Origin: a virus
DNA length: 64,000 bases
Reading direction: 5' to 3' (one strand)
Virus record (IMG/VR): IMGVR_UViG_3300044712_002165
Location: 1-64,000 of that record
Shown here: one piece after another, positions 4,035 through 38,694 of the stretch
How positions within the stretch are numbered: position 1 is the first letter of the stretch
Layout: the number at the start of each line of letters is the position of its first letter
The notes under the pieces: model-generated
What the model was told of the DNA's origin: nothing
What the model saw: only the letters and a program-made list of their open reading frames with translations
Databases searched by the model: none
Position numbers and translations under genes: made by a program

Positions 4035-4118
4035 GCCAGCGTGGTTTGCCCGGAATAGCAGACGGGCCTGCTTCAGAGGCAGTGAGCCTTGGGAGTGCAA
4101 TTCTCCCCGCTGGCACCA
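4035..4118 (+). tRNA. tRNA-Leu(CAG)
   Basis: 84 nt, with acceptor GCCAGCG/CGCTGGC, anticodon stem CTGC/GCAG, loop TTCAGAG giving CAG. The variable region is short for a Leu tRNA, and its AGCC can pair with GGTT after the acceptor. The D-loop GAATAGCAGA lacks GG. The T-loop is TGCAATT (G55). CCA is encoded. Confidence 0.85.
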
Positions 4119-4124
4119 GTTCTT

Positions 4125-4415
4125 ATGAACATGAAGCGTCGTACGTTCCTCTCACGACTTGTCGGCAGTGCGATCCTTGGCCGGTTTCTGCCCAAGGTCC
4201 TGGCCAAAGCGCCGGCCGCAGTCGTGGCACAGACGACGACGGCCAACGCACAGGCGTTCAGCGCGTGGGTTTTCCCGGTGATCCGGAACATGTCGCCAAG
4301 TGACGTGCTCACGGACCTGGTCAGCGTTCAACCGATGACGGCTCCGAGCGGCAACGTCATGTACCTCGATTTCAAGACGGACTCGAAGCCGGACCCGAAC
4401 GGTTGCCTTTTGTAA
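4125..4415 (+). CDS. Tat-like signal fused to a major-capsid-protein fragment (A)
   Basis: A 96-residue protein whose N-terminus MNMKRRTFLSRLVG has the twin-arginine pattern RRxFL, followed by a hydrophobic stretch and AKA. Residues from about 44 match the phage's own capsid protein (35982-37445, residues ~94-135): FSAWVFPVIRNMS against FDKWIFPVIANMS, then LVSVQPM against LVAIQPM and MYLDF against VYMDI. The capsid-like part stops soon after. Tat export is inferred from the motif only. Start chosen at the ATG 6 nt after tRNA-Leu(CAG). Confidence 0.75.
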   Translation: MNMKRRTFLSRLVGSAILGRFLPKVLAKAPAAVVAQTTTANAQAFSAWVFPVIRNMSPSDVLTDLVSVQPMTAPSGNVMYLDFKTDSKPDPNGCLL

Positions 4416-4419
4416 ACAA

Positions 4420-4680
4420 ATGAAACGTCGAAAATTCATCGCAGCTCTGGTTGGTGCTCCGGCTTTCCTCAAGGCGGCAGGAAGGCTGCGCGCAGCGCCG
4501 CCGCGTGTAATCGAGATGAAGCTCGTCAGTGCGCCTGTGGTTGCACAAGCGCGCAAGCTGAAGGCGATGTGGACGTGCGAGCTTGAACAGGACCTCAACG
4601 CCATGTACAACATTGAGGTCGAAGACATCCTCAAGAAAGCGCTTGATGGACATTTTGCCAGCGTGGTTAAGCCCGAATAG
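4420..4680 (+). CDS. Tat-like signal fused to a major-capsid-protein fragment (B)
   Basis: An 86-residue protein that begins MKRRKFIAALVGAPAFL, again an RR-F Tat-like signal. From about residue 32 it matches capsid protein residues ~256-300: EMKLVSAPVVAQARKLKAMW against EMKLSSTPVTAKVMKLKTLW, then AMYNIEVEDIL against AMYNIKAESVL. It follows fragment A by 4 nt and represents a later, non-overlapping capsid segment. The last 8 codons and the TAG stop lie inside the next tRNA-Leu gene. Confidence 0.7.
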   Translation: MKRRKFIAALVGAPAFLKAAGRLRAAPPRVIEMKLVSAPVVAQARKLKAMWTCELEQDLNAMYNIEVEDILKKALDGHFASVVKPE

Positions 4681-4740
4681 CAGAGGGTTCAGTTCGAGAG
4701 ACTGAGAGCCTTAGGGGTGCAAGTCCCTTCGCTGGCACCA
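4657..4740 (+). tRNA. tRNA-Leu(GAG) with C33
   Basis: 84 nt; the acceptor is identical to tRNA-Leu(CAG). The anticodon stem TCAGT/ACTGA is perfect and the loop TCGAGAG gives GAG with C at position 33. The T-loop is TGCAAGT (G55). CCA is encoded. It shares the GGTT/AGCC pairing of its neighbours. Confidence 0.85.
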
Positions 4741-4752
4741 ATTCTTAAAGAC

Positions 4753-5232
4753 GTGAGAGTGCTTGGTCCTTACCTCTGGCGCACAGGTGTAAACGCTGGT
4801 CGGCGCTACGTTCAGATTGTATACGCCGATGGGCGAAAAACAACGATGACGTGGGCGCGCTTTCAGCTTCGGAATCGCGTTAAAAAGGATGACTGCGTTC
4901 ATCACGTTGACGGCGATAAATCGAACGATAGCGCCTCAAATTACGCGATTGAATCGCGAAAGGAGCACGGGCGTATACACGCTAAGATTGAGTGCGGCGT
5001 TGAGATCGCTTGCGTTTGGTGTGGAAAAGTGTGCGTTAAAAGAGCACAAAAGTTAGACCATAACTCAAAGCAAGGAAAAGCAGGTCCGTTTTGCGGTAAA
5101 CGTTGCGTTGGCCTGTATAGTGAGTACGTCAGGCGCGGAGGAAACAGGTTGGCTGTTCAGCCTAGACGCCCTGTCGAAAGCAGAATCTACGGGCGAGTGG
5201 TTCACGGGGAACAGCAGACCCGACCGGCCTAG
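4753..5232 (+). CDS. HNH homing-type endonuclease
   Basis: A protein of about 159 residues from the GTG at 4753. The HNH core reads CVHHVDGDKSNDSASNYAIES, typical of phage HNH nucleases with a His-Asn-His metal site. A CVWCGKVC...CGKRC zinc motif follows. The gene is more AT-rich than its neighbours. The TAG stop at 5230-5232 is exactly the anticodon of tRNA-Leu(TAG), so about 42 nt are shared with that tRNA. Probably a mobile gene lodged at a tRNA. Confidence 0.85.
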   Translation: MRVLGPYLWRTGVNAGRRYVQIVYADGRKTTMTWARFQLRNRVKKDDCVHHVDGDKSNDSASNYAIESRKEHGRIHAKIECGVEIACVWCGKVCVKRAQKLDHNSKQGKAGPFCGKRCVGLYSEYVRRGGNRLAVQPRRPVESRIYGRVVHGEQQTRPA

Positions 5233-5274
5233 ACCCGGATAGCCTTGGAGGTGCAATTCCTCTCTCGCCCACCA
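5191..5274 (+). tRNA. tRNA-Leu(TAG) with C33
   Basis: 84 nt, with acceptor GGGCGAG/CTCGCCC, stem CCGG/CCGG, loop CCTAGAC giving TAG with C33. The T-loop is TGCAATT (G55) and CCA is encoded. The HNH stop codon coincides with the anticodon. Confidence 0.85.
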
Positions 5275-5292: not shown

Positions 5293-5940
5293 GTGCGTGT
5301 CATCACCTGCGTCAGCGTTGCGCTCACAACGCACTGCAACCTGGCCTGTCCAGACTGTTGCTGCGATATTCCGCGGCGCGGCGGAGGCACTCCGGTCGCC
5401 TGGGAGTATCTGGAGCTGGCAGCACAGCACTTGCGCGGCACGCCGAGGATCAATCTGACCGGTGGCGAGCCGACAACGCATCCACACTTCGATGAGTGGA
5501 GCCCGCGTTTTCGCGATCTGTTTCAGTGCTCGAAGCTGACCGTGGAGACGAATGGAATTTTGTCTACGAAACACGTGGACGCTCTGAGGTGCTACGATAC
5601 TGTATACGTTACGCACTACACGCCCGACACGTTCAAGGACGCGCCTTCGTACTACAGGGTGGACAACTCCAGGCAAATTGAAATTCTGCGCGAGGCGCTC
5701 GGCGACCGGCTCTACGTCAAGCCGTACATGTACCACCAGCCCAGACGCGAGCAGCGTGGTACCAAGCCTTGCGCCGCGGCCTTTTCGGAGACGGTGGCCT
5801 TCTGGAACGGCAAGCTGTTTCCGTGCTGCCTGGCTGACGGTGTTCCGAATGCGGTCGGCATTCCCTTGACGGACGATTGGCGAACGCGCATACACGAAGT
5901 GCAGCCTCCATGCGCGACCTGTTTTTTCGCAGTTCCATAG
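5293..5940 (+). CDS. Radical SAM enzyme with SPASM-like cysteines
   Basis: A 215-residue protein from the GTG at 5293. CNLACPDC near residue 16 is the CxxxCxxC motif that binds the SAM-cleaving [4Fe-4S] cluster, and LTGGEPTTHP is the GGEP motif for SAM binding. Near the C-terminus CAAAF, FPCC and CATC provide further cysteines like an auxiliary-cluster (SPASM/twitch) region. The substrate is unknown. The location between two tRNA-Leu genes allows a role in tRNA or peptide modification, but the sequence does not decide. The last base of the stop is the first base of the next tRNA. Confidence 0.88.
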   Translation: MRVITCVSVALTTHCNLACPDCCCDIPRRGGGTPVAWEYLELAAQHLRGTPRINLTGGEPTTHPHFDEWSPRFRDLFQCSKLTVETNGILSTKHVDALRCYDTVYVTHYTPDTFKDAPSYYRVDNSRQIEILREALGDRLYVKPYMYHQPRREQRGTKPCAAAFSETVAFWNGKLFPCCLADGVPNAVGIPLTDDWRTRIHEVQPPCATCFFAVP

Positions 5941-6027: not shown

Positions 6028-6111
6028 CGCGGCGTGGTTTACCCGGAATAGCAGACGGGGCGGTTTCAAAAACCGACAGCCTTGGAGGTGCAATTCCTCT
6101 CGCCGCGACCA
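6028..6111 (+). tRNA. tRNA-Leu(CAA)
   Basis: 84 nt, with acceptor CGCGGCG/CGCCGCG, anticodon loop TTCAAAA giving CAA, T-loop TGCAATT (G55), and CCA encoded. Fifth Leu isoacceptor in a row. Confidence 0.87.
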
Positions 6112-7174: not shown

Positions 7175-7595
7175 GGGGGTGTACTGGTATCGATCTGTGT
7201 AAACAGATCGGTTGCTGCGTGCCGAGGATGATCGTTGGCCTCGTAAAATCTGCGATCAAAACATCAACTGCCAACAGGCTGAGTGATGAGTCGGTCCTCG
7301 CGGAAGCGGAAGCCATCCTGGCCAACCCGGATGCTTTCCTCCCCGCGGAGGTCGAAGCCGTGGCCTAACAAGGTCACCCGGTTGCCTGTAGACGCCTGCT
7401 AAGCAGGGTCAACCGTCATCAGCAGGATCGTGGCGCTTCGAGCAGTGTCGAAGCTCCGGCAGCTGGGTCAAGCTGCACCACAGGCTCTGCGCGATTTTGC
7501 TGATTCAGCGCAGCCTGGACTCAAATCAGCTATGCACGTAGACGCGGCCGGTTGTAGACGCAGAGACGCGGGTTCAACTCCCGCCACCTCCACCA
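7175..7595 (+). ncRNA. ssrA: tmRNA (one-piece)
   Basis: The tRNA-like ends are clear. Acceptor GGGGGTG pairs with CACCTCC with the G3-U70 pair that specifies alanine. TGCCGAGG...TTGGCCTCGTAAAA matches the conserved 5' part, and GACGCGGGTTCAACTCCCGCC the T-arm before CCACCA. Length is 421 nt, against 363 nt in E. coli. A long tag frame ends in TAA at 7368. Its product would free ribosomes stalled on broken mRNAs and mark the nascent protein for proteolysis. A phage-borne tmRNA is known in some mycobacteriophages but is rare. Confidence 0.95.
7270..7368 (+). other. tmRNA tag-peptide reading frame (32 codons)
   Basis: Taking the GCC at 7270 as the resume codon, by analogy to the position of GCA in E. 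coli, the tag begins ANRLSDESVL and ends AEVEAVA, 32 residues before TAA. It is much longer than the 10-residue E. coli tag; its hydrophobic Ala end suits ClpXP-like recognition. The exact resume codon is an inference. Confidence 0.7.
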
Positions 7596-10359: not shown

Positions 10360-10902
10360 ATGTCAAAGCGTCTACCAAAACGCGATTCCACGATTATTCT
10401 GCAACTGGCCATGTCTGCTTACGAGGCGCGCCTGTTGCGCGACGAGCTATGTGGTCAGCTTTCTGAAATGGATTTGGACGACGCTACAGCTGACGTTTTT
10501 GAGGACCACGAAACCGTTCTAACCACGTCTTTCGACGATTGGGTCAACATTCGCCAAAACGACGTATACAGAAAAAGGCTGAGGCCCGTGCTAGAGAAAA
10601 CGGTGAAGGCACTGCGCGTGTCTCTCGGCCTTTCACCTGAGATTCCAACGGTCAAACTGCCGATGGCGTTGGCTGATCGTGACGGGCATACCTTGCAGGA
10701 ATTTAGGCTTTACCTCGACTTGCACAAAAAGGGTCTGCTTGATAATTCAACTAGGCTCAAAGGTCTCGCAAAGTTTGAAAAATGCGCTAGAACGCTGAAC
10801 GCGACTTATATCGCAAAGGATACGTCGTGGTATTACGACGGAACTGTATACGCCACGTTTGACGCGCTTTGCGAAAGGCTCATTAGTGATTTTCGGGAAT
10901 AG
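10360..10902 (+). CDS. Hypothetical protein
   Basis: A 180-residue protein from the ATG at 10360, 18 nt after tRNA-Ser. Charged and mostly helical, with MDLDDATADVFEDHETVL and VLEKTVKALRVSLGLS. Codon use is slightly more AT-rich than the neighbours, hinting at separate acquisition. No family recognised. The stop is 1 nt before the next tRNA. Confidence 0.7.
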   Translation: MSKRLPKRDSTIILQLAMSAYEARLLRDELCGQLSEMDLDDATADVFEDHETVLTTSFDDWVNIRQNDVYRKRLRPVLEKTVKALRVSLGLSPEIPTVKLPMALADRDGHTLQEFRLYLDLHKKGLLDNSTRLKGLAKFEKCARTLNATYIAKDTSWYYDGTVYATFDALCERLISDFRE

Positions 10903-34277: not shown

Positions 34278-35945
34278 ATGCGACAATACCTTGCTGAAGG
34301 CGTAACGGGAGCAACTCCCTTTGTTGTTGATCGCAGCAAGCCCTTCGTCACGGAGAGCCGCCCCTCTGGCTCCGCATTCACCAAGATACCGGGTCGCTTC
34401 AGCGTCTGCGACTGCATCAACGGGAACAACCGCCGCTACAGTAAGCGCGTCTGGGAGAAGAACTTGAGCGACGGGTCTCCCCTGATGGATTCCATCGCCA
34501 AGAGCGCAGCCTTCGGTCTTCTTGAGCATCCCAAAGACGGTACGATCAGTCTTCTTTCCCCGATTTCCCACCAGGTCACCTCGGCAAAGCTCATCGAGAG
34601 CAAGGGTGACGATGGCAAGCCTGTCTACGAGGTGGTCGGTGAGATTTCCATCTACGACACCGAGGAAGGCCGCAAGCTGAAGGCCCTCATCGAAGGGGGC
34701 TACAACCCTTTGGTTTCCAGCCGAGGATACGGGTCCTTGGTGAAAGCGCCGGATGGCGTAGACGAGGTGCAGGAGGACTACGTCTGCGAAAGCTGGGACG
34801 TGGTCATCAAGCCGTCCTTCTCGACGGCTGAACTCAAACCAATGCGGGAGCCCGTGGCATCGACCACCGATTCCCGATTGGCTGCACCTCCGGCCCACGA
34901 ATCGAACCCTCAGAAGGAGCAGAAGGCACTTGCTGAGGGTCAGTCAGGTTTGAAGGAGTCGCCTTCAAAGCCGGGCGCAGCCGTCGCTGCCGCCACAACC
35001 CAAAAGAGCACCATGGAACTATCCGAAATCAAGAGCCGGCTCACGACGCTGCGCGGTATCGATGCCACCAAGCTCGATCCCACACGCGTCTCTGAGAGCT
35101 TGCAGGAAGTTGAAACCCTGCACCAGGAGGTTGCTACGTTCGGTGCTGCTGATCCCAAGCGGGCGTATGAAGCGCACCGCCTGCACCAGCAGCTCGACGC
35201 GGTCGCCAATCGCATCAACGAAGCCGTCGCCGCCCCGCGCAAGCAGGCCGCAAAGCTTCACGAGCACAACACCAAGCTCATGAAGGTCATCAACGCCGTG
35301 GCTGCCACCGCGTTGACCTACAGGAAGAAGCTCGGTGAGTCCCTCGGCAAGGAGGGCAAGACCTCGAAGATCGTCGAGGAACTCACCCGGCGCGGCCAGG
35401 GCTGGCACCAGCTCGCCACGGAGCGCAAGGAAGCCCTCGGGACCACGACCAAGAAGTTCGAGACCGCCTGCGAGGCCCTCGACATCATGGCGAAGCGCTA
35501 CCACGAGGACACCACCGCCCTCAGCCGCCGCCTCCTCCAGCTGGAGTTCAAGCAGCAGCTCGAAGCCAAGCCCGCGCTGGCCGAGAAGCTCTCCAAGGCG
35601 ACCCGCATGCGCCACGTCGCCGCCGTCCGCGAGGAACTCGAAGGCAAGAAGCCGGCCAAGGTTTCCGAGGAAGCCGGAGTCGGCAAGCCGTCCGACGGTG
35701 CAGCTCCTGGTAAGGAGGGCATCAAGGACGAGAAGCAGAAGGGTGCCCCCAGCCCCGACGAAGGCAAGGTCGCCGACGCTCCTGGCAAGGTCACCAACGA
35801 GTCGAAGACGCCTGCTGCTGACGGCAAGAAGCCCGTCCAGGAGGACAAGCAGAAGCTTTCGTTCACGACGCCGGGCGATCCCCGCGGCTTGAACGAATCC
35901 GTGGAAATGGTGCGCCGGTTGAGCGGTGCCACCGCCAACAAGTAG
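34278..35945 (+). CDS. Prohead protease fused to scaffold-like domain
   Basis: A 555-residue protein. Residues ~35-185 match the gp21-type prohead protease family: INGNNRRYSKRVWEKNL, the His of GLLEHPKD, and VSSRGYGSL with the catalytic Ser. Residues ~235-440 are helical and coiled coil (LHQEVATFGAADPKRAYEAHRLHQQLDAVANRINEAV) like a scaffolding core, and the last ~100 residues are Lys/Glu/Pro-rich. T4 has separate protease and scaffold genes; here they seem joined. Directly upstream of the capsid gene. Confidence 0.85.
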   Translation: MRQYLAEGVTGATPFVVDRSKPFVTESRPSGSAFTKIPGRFSVCDCINGNNRRYSKRVWEKNLSDGSPLMDSIAKSAAFGLLEHPKDGTISLLSPISHQVTSAKLIESKGDDGKPVYEVVGEISIYDTEEGRKLKALIEGGYNPLVSSRGYGSLVKAPDGVDEVQEDYVCESWDVVIKPSFSTAELKPMREPVASTTDSRLAAPPAHESNPQKEQKALAEGQSGLKESPSKPGAAVAAATTQKSTMELSEIKSRLTTLRGIDATKLDPTRVSESLQEVETLHQEVATFGAADPKRAYEAHRLHQQLDAVANRINEAVAAPRKQAAKLHEHNTKLMKVINAVAATALTYRKKLGESLGKEGKTSKIVEELTRRGQGWHQLATERKEALGTTTKKFETACEALDIMAKRYHEDTTALSRRLLQLEFKQQLEAKPALAEKLSKATRMRHVAAVREELEGKKPAKVSEEAGVGKPSDGAAPGKEGIKDEKQKGAPSPDEGKVADAPGKVTNESKTPAADGKKPVQEDKQKLSFTTPGDPRGLNESVEMVRRLSGATANK

Positions 35946-35981: not shown

Positions 35982-37445
35982 ATGGTTATTCTGCACGAAA
36001 CAGGACGGCCGATGCTGGCGAGTGAAGGCGGTCACATCAACCGCTTCACCGACATCCTCGAATGGGGTTACCGCCTGGCTGAGACGCCGGTCGGCACCCC
36101 CGAAAAGAACCCCCGCGGTCTCTGGGAAGCCAGGGGCTGGAAGGAGTTCGTCCAACACATGCCCGAGCACAAGCGCCCCATCGCGGCGATCATGCTCGAA
36201 AACTGCCGTTCCCGCTGGGGCCGGCTGGACGAAGTTACCCGGACCACAAGTCTCGGTACCTTTGATAAGTGGATCTTCCCGGTGATTGCGAACATGTCCG
36301 AGAACGACGTGATCGACCAGCTCGTCGCCATCCAGCCGATGGCCGGTCCGGTCAGTCAGATCGTTTACATGGACATCGTCACCGGACGCCGGAAGGGCCG
36401 CACGCCCGCTGGCGCGCCGATGTGGCGTGCGCTCCAGGGCGCGGTTGACCGCGACGACGACGCCGACGAGCTGATCCAGGACGAGACCGGCACCTCGAAC
36501 GGTTCCGGCGTGATCGTGCTGGAATGGACTCCGATTCGCGCCGGCACGCTGTCCGGCACCGTCGGCTCCATCTCGGTGGCCGACGACGGCAACGGCAACA
36601 TCATCAACGTGGCGTCCAACGCTACCGTCGGTACCGTCGTGTACCAGGGCACGGGCGCGGGCACGATCACCATCGCGTCGCAGGCGAACGCGAGCTACAC
36701 GCTCACCTACGCCTACAACTCGGAAGGCAACCTGGCGATCCAGGACTACGAGATGAAGCTCTCATCGACGCCGGTTACGGCGAAGGTGATGAAGCTGAAG
36801 ACCCTCTGGTCCGAGGAAGCCGACCAGAACCTCCAGGCGATGTACAACATCAAGGCCGAGAGCGTCCTGCTCAACGCCCTGACCAACGCGCTCCAGTACC
36901 AGAAGCACCGCCAGGTGATCTTCGATCTGCGCGCCAAGGCTGACGCCGGCTTCGTCGTCTGGGACGCCATCGCTCCGGCGAACGTCAACTACCAGACGCA
37001 CAAGTTCTCGATCATCGACGCGTTCGAGACCGCCTCGAACTTCATCTTCGGTGCCACGAACATGGTCGCCGGCAACTGGGTGCTCCTGGGTCTCCAGGCT
37101 GCCACCGTGGTGGCCACGCTGCCTCAGTTCGTGCCGAAGAACTCCCGGGTCCAGATGCAGGGCATCACCTACATCGGTGATCTTGGAAATAAGAAAATCT
37201 TCTCGGACCCGCACTATCCGAACAACGAGTTCCTCGTCGGCCACAAGGGCGACCAGTTCCTCACGACCGGGTACGTTCTGGCGGAATATCAAAAATTGTA
37301 TACAACGCCCGACGTTGTTCTCCCGGACTTCATCCACCAGCGCGGCTTCGCCACGAGCTTCGCTCGGAAGATGATCAACTCGAAGATGTTCTGCCGCGGA
37401 TTGGTTCAGAACTCTCCGACGGCGTTCGGCCAGACCATCGGCTAA
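35982..37445 (+). CDS. Major capsid protein (gp23-like)
   Basis: A 487-residue protein. KWIFPVIANMSENDVIDQLVAIQPMAGPVSQIVYMDIV is characteristic of the T4 gp23-like HK97-fold capsid family, and the C-terminal IHQRGFATSFARKMINSKMF completes it. The N-terminal ~65 residues may be removed by the adjacent protease. A Gly/Ser/Thr-rich insert (ITIASQANASYTLTYAYNS) could be the surface-exposed insertion domain. Ends at a strong terminator. Two short genes at 4125 and 4420 copy pieces of it. Confidence 0.92.
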   Translation: MVILHETGRPMLASEGGHINRFTDILEWGYRLAETPVGTPEKNPRGLWEARGWKEFVQHMPEHKRPIAAIMLENCRSRWGRLDEVTRTTSLGTFDKWIFPVIANMSENDVIDQLVAIQPMAGPVSQIVYMDIVTGRRKGRTPAGAPMWRALQGAVDRDDDADELIQDETGTSNGSGVIVLEWTPIRAGTLSGTVGSISVADDGNGNIINVASNATVGTVVYQGTGAGTITIASQANASYTLTYAYNSEGNLAIQDYEMKLSSTPVTAKVMKLKTLWSEEADQNLQAMYNIKAESVLLNALTNALQYQKHRQVIFDLRAKADAGFVVWDAIAPANVNYQTHKFSIIDAFETASNFIFGATNMVAGNWVLLGLQAATVVATLPQFVPKNSRVQMQGITYIGDLGNKKIFSDPHYPNNEFLVGHKGDQFLTTGYVLAEYQKLYTTPDVVLPDFIHQRGFATSFARKMINSKMFCRGLVQNSPTAFGQTIG

Positions 37446-37500: not shown

Positions 37501-38225
37501 ACGTTCCGGCCCTTCCTATCCTGTTCGGTCGTCTACCTTCCAATCCATGACTTTCCTTTCCTGCCTTTCCGTTCCTTTCCGCAACTTTCCTCTGCGCACC
37601 GCTCCACTTCGTTCCATTCCGGCCCTTCCCCTCCTGTCCATTCAGCTCCCTAGCACTTCTAACCGTTCCTCTCCTGCCCTTCCGTAGCCTTCCCTGCCGG
37701 TCCGATCCTTTCCTTTCCCATCAGCTCCTTTCCGAGCCGTTCCTGCCTTTCCATTAGCGTCCACACCATTCCTGCCGGTCCGGTCCCATCCCTTCCTATC
37801 CATTCCGCTTCTCGCCATTCCAATCCTCTCCTGCCGCTCCACTCCTCTGACCTCCGGTCCGTTTCTATCCCCGCCGCTCCTTTCCTGCCGGTTCATTCCC
37901 CTCCATGCCACTTTGCGACGCTCCACTCCTATCGTCTCCTGCCGGTCCGTTCCCCTCCATGCCGTTCCTCACCGTTTCACTCCTTGCCTCTCCTGCCGGT
38001 CCGATCCTTGCCATTCCAGTCCGCTCCTTTTCGTGCCTTGCCATTCCTGCCACTCCGATCCGATTCCTTCCACTGCGTTCCGATTCACTCCCTGCCGTTC
38101 CTCTCCTGCCCTTCCTCAACGGTCCCATCCACTCCACTTCTCTCCACACCATTCCTCACGGCTCCATTCCTGCCTTTCCATTAGCGTCCGATCCTATGCA
38201 ATCCACAACTGTCCAATCCTGCCGT
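37501..38225. repeat. Pyrimidine-rich degenerate pentamer tract
   Basis: About 725 nt of very C/T-rich plus strand in which TCC recurs nearly every five bases, a degenerate (NTCCN)n pattern. A longer unit TCCTGCCGGTCCG recurs (for example near 37930 and 37995). Open frames exist on both strands but only repeat short peptides. No gene is supported here. Confidence 0.85.
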
Positions 38226-38232
38226 TCCTTGT

Positions 38233-38694
38233 TTACGTTTTGGTACACCGTTTTCTCACTCTATCCACGGTGTCCCAAATTTCATGAAGGTGCGTGAAGA
38301 ACGCGTATTTTGCCTTCAGCCTGTCAAGCTCGCGGTAGAGCTGCTCAAGCAGCACTGTACTGTGCTGCGCGCTACTCATGACCTCGCCCACGGGTCTGTA
38401 CCCTCCGCCTTGTTCGCGGTCCGTGGTGAGGCTGATCCAGGCAGGAGCCGGGCTGCCGTTTGACAACGTTATTTCGATCTTACCGACGAGGTCTCTCGCC
38501 TCGACGATCCAGTATTTTTGAGCAGCTTCTTGAACATCCCAGGTAAAGTGCCTGTGGCATTCACTCTGTGGATGCGTGCGGGCAAACTCAACGATGTCGG
38601 CTAGGTGAAGTTTGCCGTCTTTGGAAGCAGCGCGGATTTTTTCGATTTCCCGCGCTGCCTTTTTGAGCCGACGTGGTTCAAAAGCGTTGTCCAT
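38233..38694 (-). CDS. Hypothetical helical protein
   Basis: A 153-residue minus-strand protein from the ATG at 38694. FEPRRLKKAAREIEKIRAASKDGKLHLADIV is basic and helical, and the C-terminus LYRELDRLKAKYAFFTHLHEIWDTVDRVRKRC is also helical. A middle section (KIEITLSNGSPAPAWISLTTDREQGGG) may form strands. No family. Overlaps the end of the upstream gene and is co-transcribed with it. Confidence 0.7.
   Translation of the reverse strand: MDNAFEPRRLKKAAREIEKIRAASKDGKLHLADIVEFARTHPQSECHRHFTWDVQEAAQKYWIVEARDLVGKIEITLSNGSPAPAWISLTTDREQGGGYRPVGEVMSSAQHSTVLLEQLYRELDRLKAKYAFFTHLHEIWDTVDRVRKRCTKT

Follow-up and report, generated by a model that had tools for sequence, protein, structure and literature searches.

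Why does a large uncultured phage that encodes an intact major capsid protein (MCP) also carry two small genes, each of which joins a twin-arginine-like leader to a piece of that type of protein? We addressed this question for the window, a stretch of 64,000 bases from an IMG/VR virus record of 75,142 bases (G000). The two genes stand in tandem and both start MKRR.F: ORF-A (4125-4415, + strand, 96 aa, starting MNMKRRTFLSRLVG) runs from an RR-F leader into MCP block 1, and ORF-B (4420-4680, + strand, 86 aa, starting MKRRKFIAALVG) runs from an RR-F leader into MCP block 2. They look like members of a recurrent class of accessory genes that hold short, long-diverged but constrained pieces of a gp23-type MCP. 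Many pieces of this class sit behind a leader that is common to other genes of the same genome.

ORF-A and ORF-B match two separate blocks of the capsid protein

The leaders are encoded at 4125-4232 (+; MNMKRRTFLSRLVGSAILGRFLPKVLAKAPAAVVA) in ORF-A and at 4420-4509 (+; MKRRKFIAALVGAPAFLKAAGRLRAAPPRV) in ORF-B, both twin-arginine-like. Downstream of them, an MCP profile search placed block 1 at 4233-4385 (+; profile positions 86-136, E 1.6e-14) and block 2 at 4510-4647 (+; profile positions 255-300, E 1.1e-11), the latter in the spine-helix region of the P domain. In the alignment, block 1 is the N-terminal arm of the mature MCP, directly after the predicted LDE prohead-protease site, and its profile positions 100-136 map near T4 gp23 residues 97-131. 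PF07068 (Gp23, gathering cut-off 24.4 bits) matched ORF-A at profile positions 4-46 (E 6.2e-7, 29.6 bits) and ORF-B at 133-178 (E 4.2e-9, 36.7 bits). Chance similarity to the MCP was ruled out by the PF07068 and MCP-profile matches. Both ORFs also matched phrog_138 'major head protein'. Coverage of the 376 positions of PF07068 was partial, being limited to these two spans with a near full-length domain absent; on sequence grounds ORF-A and ORF-B are pieces of a capsid protein, not capsid proteins.

The intact MCP gene, of T4 gp23 type, lies at 35982-37445 (+; 487 aa; PF07068 E 2.6e-29). Aligned to its product, ORF-A residues 37-87 were 43% identical (E 2e-12) and ORF-B residues 31-76 were 52% identical (E 3e-11), so that the homologous spans fall near the residues given in the initial annotation. 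Its account, in which each RR-F start leads into a different MCP block, agrees with PF07068, phrog_138 and these alignments. The motifs VQPM (block 1) and KLKxxWxxExxQxL (block 2) of the T4 gp23-type MCP (PF07068, phrog_138) are kept in the two homologous ORFs. Unlike such an MCP, ORF-A and ORF-B hold only ~45-50 MCP residues each, without propeptide or full fold, and are separate genes with an RR-F leader. The structure model of ORF-A, of moderate confidence, has a disordered leader followed by only a helix plus a hairpin. For both ORFs, genome codon usage preferred the annotated frame over the remaining five.

In the intact MCP the predicted cleavage site is LDE, with VTRT after it; we infer from its resemblance to T4 sites that this is a prohead-protease site. 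Profile matches identified a prohead protease (Peptidase_S77) at 34278-35945 (+), whose long C-terminal region is probably scaffold-like. Just 3' of the MCP gene, at 37640-38300, low-complexity repeats give rise to repeat-like ORFs on both strands.

The pieces are old and look constrained

According to the initial annotation, ORF-A and ORF-B copy blocks of the phage's own MCP. The homology was upheld, but to call them copies overstates the relation: the two ORFs are 40-60% identical to any MCP of the clade, far outside the diversity of clade MCPs, which are nearly invariant in these blocks, and a recent copy of the own MCP is thereby ruled out. Most pieces, including those from relatives described below, retain the clade signatures WIFPVIxNMS and QTHKFS and therefore derive from this MCP lineage, though long ago. 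These shared signatures leave an MCP of cyanophage or T4 type unsupported as the source of most pieces; the exceptions are the G022 block 1 and G007 block 2 pieces, which are closest to other Gp23 types.

To look at constraint, we separated MCP positions conserved throughout the Gp23 family from positions that are invariant in the clade alone. ORF-A and ORF-B retained 13 of 14 family-wide residues and 18 of 45 clade-only residues (Fisher P 5e-4). Over all block 1 and block 2 pieces the counts were 37/47 and 60/150 (P 4e-6); block 3 pieces, found in relatives, were without this contrast. Such sorting of positions is unlike free decay from an MCP, and because they are coding and selectively retain family-wide residues, ORF-A and ORF-B look constrained. 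No close homologues of the two ORFs for dN/dS were found in IMG/VR, and the pieces are singletons by close search. Alignment-based scans with the three blocks recovered intact MCPs and the block 3 pieces already known, and nothing else.

Capsid protein pieces recur in related genomes

We searched 29 records, the own record included, with the MCP profile (A1). Beyond the window, ten stray MCP pieces (two of them weak) were found in eight related records, and the same three blocks recurred: the mature N-arm (block 1), the spine helix (block 2) and the A-domain (block 3). Block 1 pieces are present in G000, G023 (E 4.5e-16), G022 and, weakly, G010; block 2 pieces in G000, G022, G007 and, weakly, G001; block 3 pieces in G019, G002, G023 and G020. 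Independent searches also recovered such pieces. The stray pieces are located away from the intact MCP, and each genome has them at other sites and with other partners. Block boundaries are common to pieces from different genomes, with block 1 pieces starting approximately at the predicted mature MCP start. All pieces scored best by codon usage in their own coding frame. No stop-containing, frame-shifted or recent high-identity pieces were seen among them, though one weak piece ends at a stop.

The block 3 pieces of G002 and G019 are as near to each other as to any MCP. When a model of the G002 piece (moderate confidence) was searched with Foldseek, phage capsid proteins were among the best matches, all of them weak (for example the phage P1 head, E 0.012), which would weakly support a capsid fold for the block 3 piece.

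The dispersal is biased towards the MCP. Distant partial pieces in small genes were counted for 39 core clusters (proteins of at least 250 aa, present in at least 5 genomes). The MCP had 9 of them, one mobile insertion domain included, although the MCP is also the most conserved family in these genomes, so its pieces are the easiest to detect. Other core clusters had 0-2 distant pieces each, tail-protein paralogues excepted. A second, different method agreed on MCP specificity, save for one repeated small domain. General dispersal of fragments of all genes was thus rejected as the main explanation, because the other core clusters are almost free of such pieces, a DNA polymerase A piece and a weak prohead-protease-like piece (both described below) being exceptions. 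Two controls, both of modest size, gave no clear stray MCP piece: 13 annotated Gp23 phages and 19 records with more distant MCPs. The insertion-domain piece of G010 (83276-83914) was set aside because the domain is also present in other, large proteins. In the same genome, a small gene (86968-87396, +; L146) weakly resembles part of a prohead protease (E 4e-5) and lies 3 kb from the gene with the MCP insertion domain.

RR-F leaders and the question of Tat export

The RR-F leaders, starting MKRRTFLSRLVG in ORF-A and MKRRKFIAALVG in ORF-B, begin MKRRTFL and MKRRKFI. In both, an RRxF(L/I) pattern stands near the N-terminus and the residues after it are moderately hydrophobic (mean leader hydropathy 0.85 for ORF-A and 1.29 for ORF-B). 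The Tat-type signals of the initial annotation were upheld as regards the twin-arginine motif, but a match to the TAT profile was missing: TIGR01409 matched none of the ORF-A, ORF-B and G023 leaders, in a search where HMMER filters may drop weak matches. Only a G001 leader protein approached the profile (16.1 bits against a cut-off of 16.7). Tat export of ORF-A and ORF-B may be entertained as a motif-level possibility. A separate gene of G023 (131509-132465, +; 319 aa) has a near-perfect Tat motif (SRRNFIKTGALWLPGAAVVSA) on a tail-type-looking protein.

Leaders of the RR-F/A kind are rare, with 8 in 12 genomes (~2,700 genes), and 4 of the 8 stand on MCP pieces (hypergeometric P ~1.5e-8, although pieces from one genome do not count as independent). 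These same RR-F leaders also served to build the leader profile, after an unbiased motif scan. In G023, RR leaders precede both the block 1 piece (MHRRSFFKVLASG) and the block 3 piece (MNRRDALKAFGF), and as in the window an RR-leader block 1 gene is directly followed by another RR-leader gene. Because the same architecture is found again in this relative, the joining of RR-F starts to MCP blocks is not due to chance, as had been proposed from the window itself.

The MCP pieces of G001, G002 and G022 have leaders or leader remnants like those of other genes in the same genome. Near the MCP block 2 gene of G022, and with a leader motif in common, is a small gene (10551-10832, - strand; L132) that encodes a DNA polymerase A O-helix piece (PF00476 positions 209-252, E 1.2e-4). 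On account of the MCP pieces with other leaders and of this polymerase gene, the plan of a leader plus a short piece of an essential protein is wider than ORF-A and ORF-B, the MCP being the favoured source. DNA polymerase A frames in which the domain is interrupted were seen in G003 (34-37.5 kb, 1915 aa) and G008 (14.7-17 kb, 1419 aa); the interruptions are probably inteins.

Common N-terminal leaders were observed more widely, on 4-22 otherwise unrelated genes per genome, in G001 (191-199 kb and elsewhere), G007, G010, G022 and G002 (loci L131, L120, L118 and L132). Examples are MIPEEGSxQEFKRxVL, IVxxLLEaDPDEVDPkxYl and MSRARAIxEAETPR. The LLE motif in one of these is like a T4-type prohead protease site, and comparable N-terminal sites are ~1.7-3.5 fold more frequent in the relatives than in shuffled sequences. 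Proteins with common leaders may possibly be packaged and injected.

The ORFs lie between tRNA-Leu genes

ORF-A and ORF-B lie between two tRNA-Leu-like genes of class II. The first (4035-4118, +) has a CAG anticodon by hand (loop TTCAGAG) and an encoded 3' CCA; the second (4657-4740, +) has a GAG anticodon by hand (loop TCGAGAG) and a CCA end. Their acceptors are identical (GCCAGCG/CGCTGGC), and the reading by hand agrees with the placement between tRNA-Leu genes proposed at the outset, though neither gene was called by ARAGORN or Rfam. The ATG of ORF-A starts 6 nt past the CCA of the first gene. The stop codon of ORF-B (4678-4680) falls within the second; RNase P cleavage of this tRNA would take away the stop codon. 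In the relatives G001 and G002, a tRNA-Leu bearing this CAG anticodon is separated from a second tRNA-Leu by 6 nt, and no ORF intervenes.

Between the first tRNA and ORF-A lies the element GTTCTTA (4119-4125, +), which follows the CCA and overlaps the A of the ATG. In most relatives, GTTCTT[AT] occurs ~10-25 fold more often than expected within the 25 nt before predicted gene starts (in G022, 21 seen against 0.8 expected), and is a promoter- or start-like element.

In all, the window has four tRNA-Leu-like genes of 84 nt each (4035-4118, 4657-4740, 5191-5274 and 6028-6111; anticodons by hand CAG, GAG, TAG and CAA), which ARAGORN and Rfam missed. An HNH-like gene (4717-5232, a weak match) and a radical SAM gene (5293-5940) are each flanked by two of them, as accessory genes inserted between tRNA genes. 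A tmRNA gene is located in the tRNA cluster at 7175-7595 (RF00023, 127 bits) and was missed by ARAGORN.

Discussion

What might such pieces do? We rank first, tentatively and as judged from sequence comparison, a reading in which they are decoys that mimic the MCP, most likely against a host sensor of the capsid. Each piece would yield a small protein resembling a single contact surface of the capsid protein, and this mimic and the real MCP would compete for the same binding partner. The likeliest partners would be host sensors of the capsid protein, so that the pieces would act as decoys that slow or weaken capsid-triggered defence. As a guess, the RR-F leader of ORF-A and ORF-B would bring the mimic to or across the inner membrane, or would only stabilise it.

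This reading was placed first because the pieces fall in MCP regions that are known or predicted to be recognised by defences. The predicted complex of CapRel contacts the spine helix and A-domain loops of the MCP (PMC9712102), CmdC binds T4 gp23 (PMC11618068), and Gol, which lies in the first quarter and most conserved region of gp23, binds EF-Tu and activates Lit (PMC3014915). Block 1 is in the same part of gp23, and a free block 1 would be Gol-like in position, though Gol is part of an intact capsid protein and block 1 a separate gene. The spine helix and A-domain contacts predicted for CapRel are likewise regions found as pieces. CapRel and CmdTAC, which recognise the MCP, are host systems, unlike the phage genes ORF-A and ORF-B, and no phage-encoded MCP mimic against either was described in the literature searched. 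Mimicry as anti-defence is seen in T7 Ocr (PMC12409349), but Ocr mimics DNA and the model here would be the phage's own capsid protein. Recurrence, MCP specificity and the retained family-wide residues also speak for decoys, and the rapid turnover of pieces between genomes fits an arms race. Against decoys, the RR-F leaders are left unexplained, a sensor-binding piece might trigger the sensor and not block it, and ORF-B, ending inside a tRNA gene, could be truncated. An extension, that the clade keeps a dispersed anti-defence arsenal of N-arm, spine-helix and A-domain decoys with exchangeable leaders that localise or deliver them, we regard as possible but unlikely.

Chimaeras and capsid poisoning come next in our ranking, followed by packaged proteins. 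As chimaeras, the ORFs would be non-adaptive or weakly adaptive: MCP DNA would have recombined randomly into fast-changing accessory regions and been joined in frame to leaders, with most products having little function. We think this unlikely. In its favour, location and partners vary from genome to genome, close homologues were not found, ORF-A and ORF-B are flush with the tRNA genes in the window, and a DNA polymerase piece is also present, so the process is not wholly confined to the MCP. Against it stand the lack of pieces with recent high identity, frame shifts or internal stops (one weak piece ends at a stop), the selectively kept family-wide residues, the block boundaries common across genomes, the strong MCP bias and the association with RR-F leaders.

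That the pieces are trans-dominant inhibitors is likewise unlikely, though a close alternative to decoys. Free N-arm, spine-helix or A-domain pieces would poison capsid assembly of co-infecting relatives, and interference with other phages by MCP pieces is possible. The pieces are drawn from those elements of the HK97-type fold that interact, and they vary between genomes; since they differ from the own MCP (40-60% identity), self-poisoning could be avoided. Against this model, such small pieces would have to fold or bind, three unrelated surfaces are used and the RR-F leader is not needed. Fv1 and enJSRV Gag are capsid-derived restriction factors of animals, host genes that come from retroviral Gag; they would be an analogue if the pieces poison capsid assembly, but here the genes are those of a phage.

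Improbable, in our judgement, is a role as capsid-associated cargo, where the MCP piece would dock a protein to the prohead, or the leader would target it, for packaging and injection like T4 internal proteins. The sets of as many as 22 unrelated proteins behind one leader in the relatives, the LLE motif of one leader type with the excess of such N-terminal sites, and the relation of the leaders or remnants on G001, G002 and G022 MCP pieces to such leader sets would all suit this role. On inspection, however, the (L/I)xE site is absent from the RR-F leaders of ORF-A and ORF-B, and since the two ORFs contain solely leader and MCP piece, there is no evident cargo. T4 internal head proteins, which have a capsid-targeting sequence, are comparable as small accessory proteins behind a short common leader, but differ in that the RR-F leaders have no protease site. 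To our knowledge, MCP pieces do not occur in T4 internal proteins.

Finally, a broken MCP duplicate whose remnants gained start codons, as initially considered, is highly improbable: blocks 1 and 2 are in MCP order, but a second RR-F start lies between them, the ORFs keep conserved residues in stop-free coding frames at 40-60% identity, six-frame HMM searches near the site found the two blocks only, with no stops, frameshifts or nearby remnants as signs of a pseudogene, the same kinds of discrete blocks stand singly in other genomes, and no continuous degenerate capsid gene was seen in homologues, the tRNA-Leu pair of G001 and G002 being without an ORF between.

We found no description of capsid-fragment, decoy or Tat-type capsid-fusion genes in phages in the literature, which is weak evidence of novelty as subscription coverage was incomplete. 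The capsid protein is a common trigger of bacterial immunity and is hardly mutable for phages. If the proposed function is true, conserved capsid parts in small genes would be a simple means to interfere with recognition by host sensors or with assembly of rivals; if the arsenal reading is true, a phage would mimic its own capsid to blind capsid-sensing immunity. The clade offers a ready list of natural capsid pieces. Our results suggest that these phages make up accessory proteins by combining exchangeable leaders with short pieces, and building of this kind may help to explain the origin of many unrecognisable small phage genes.
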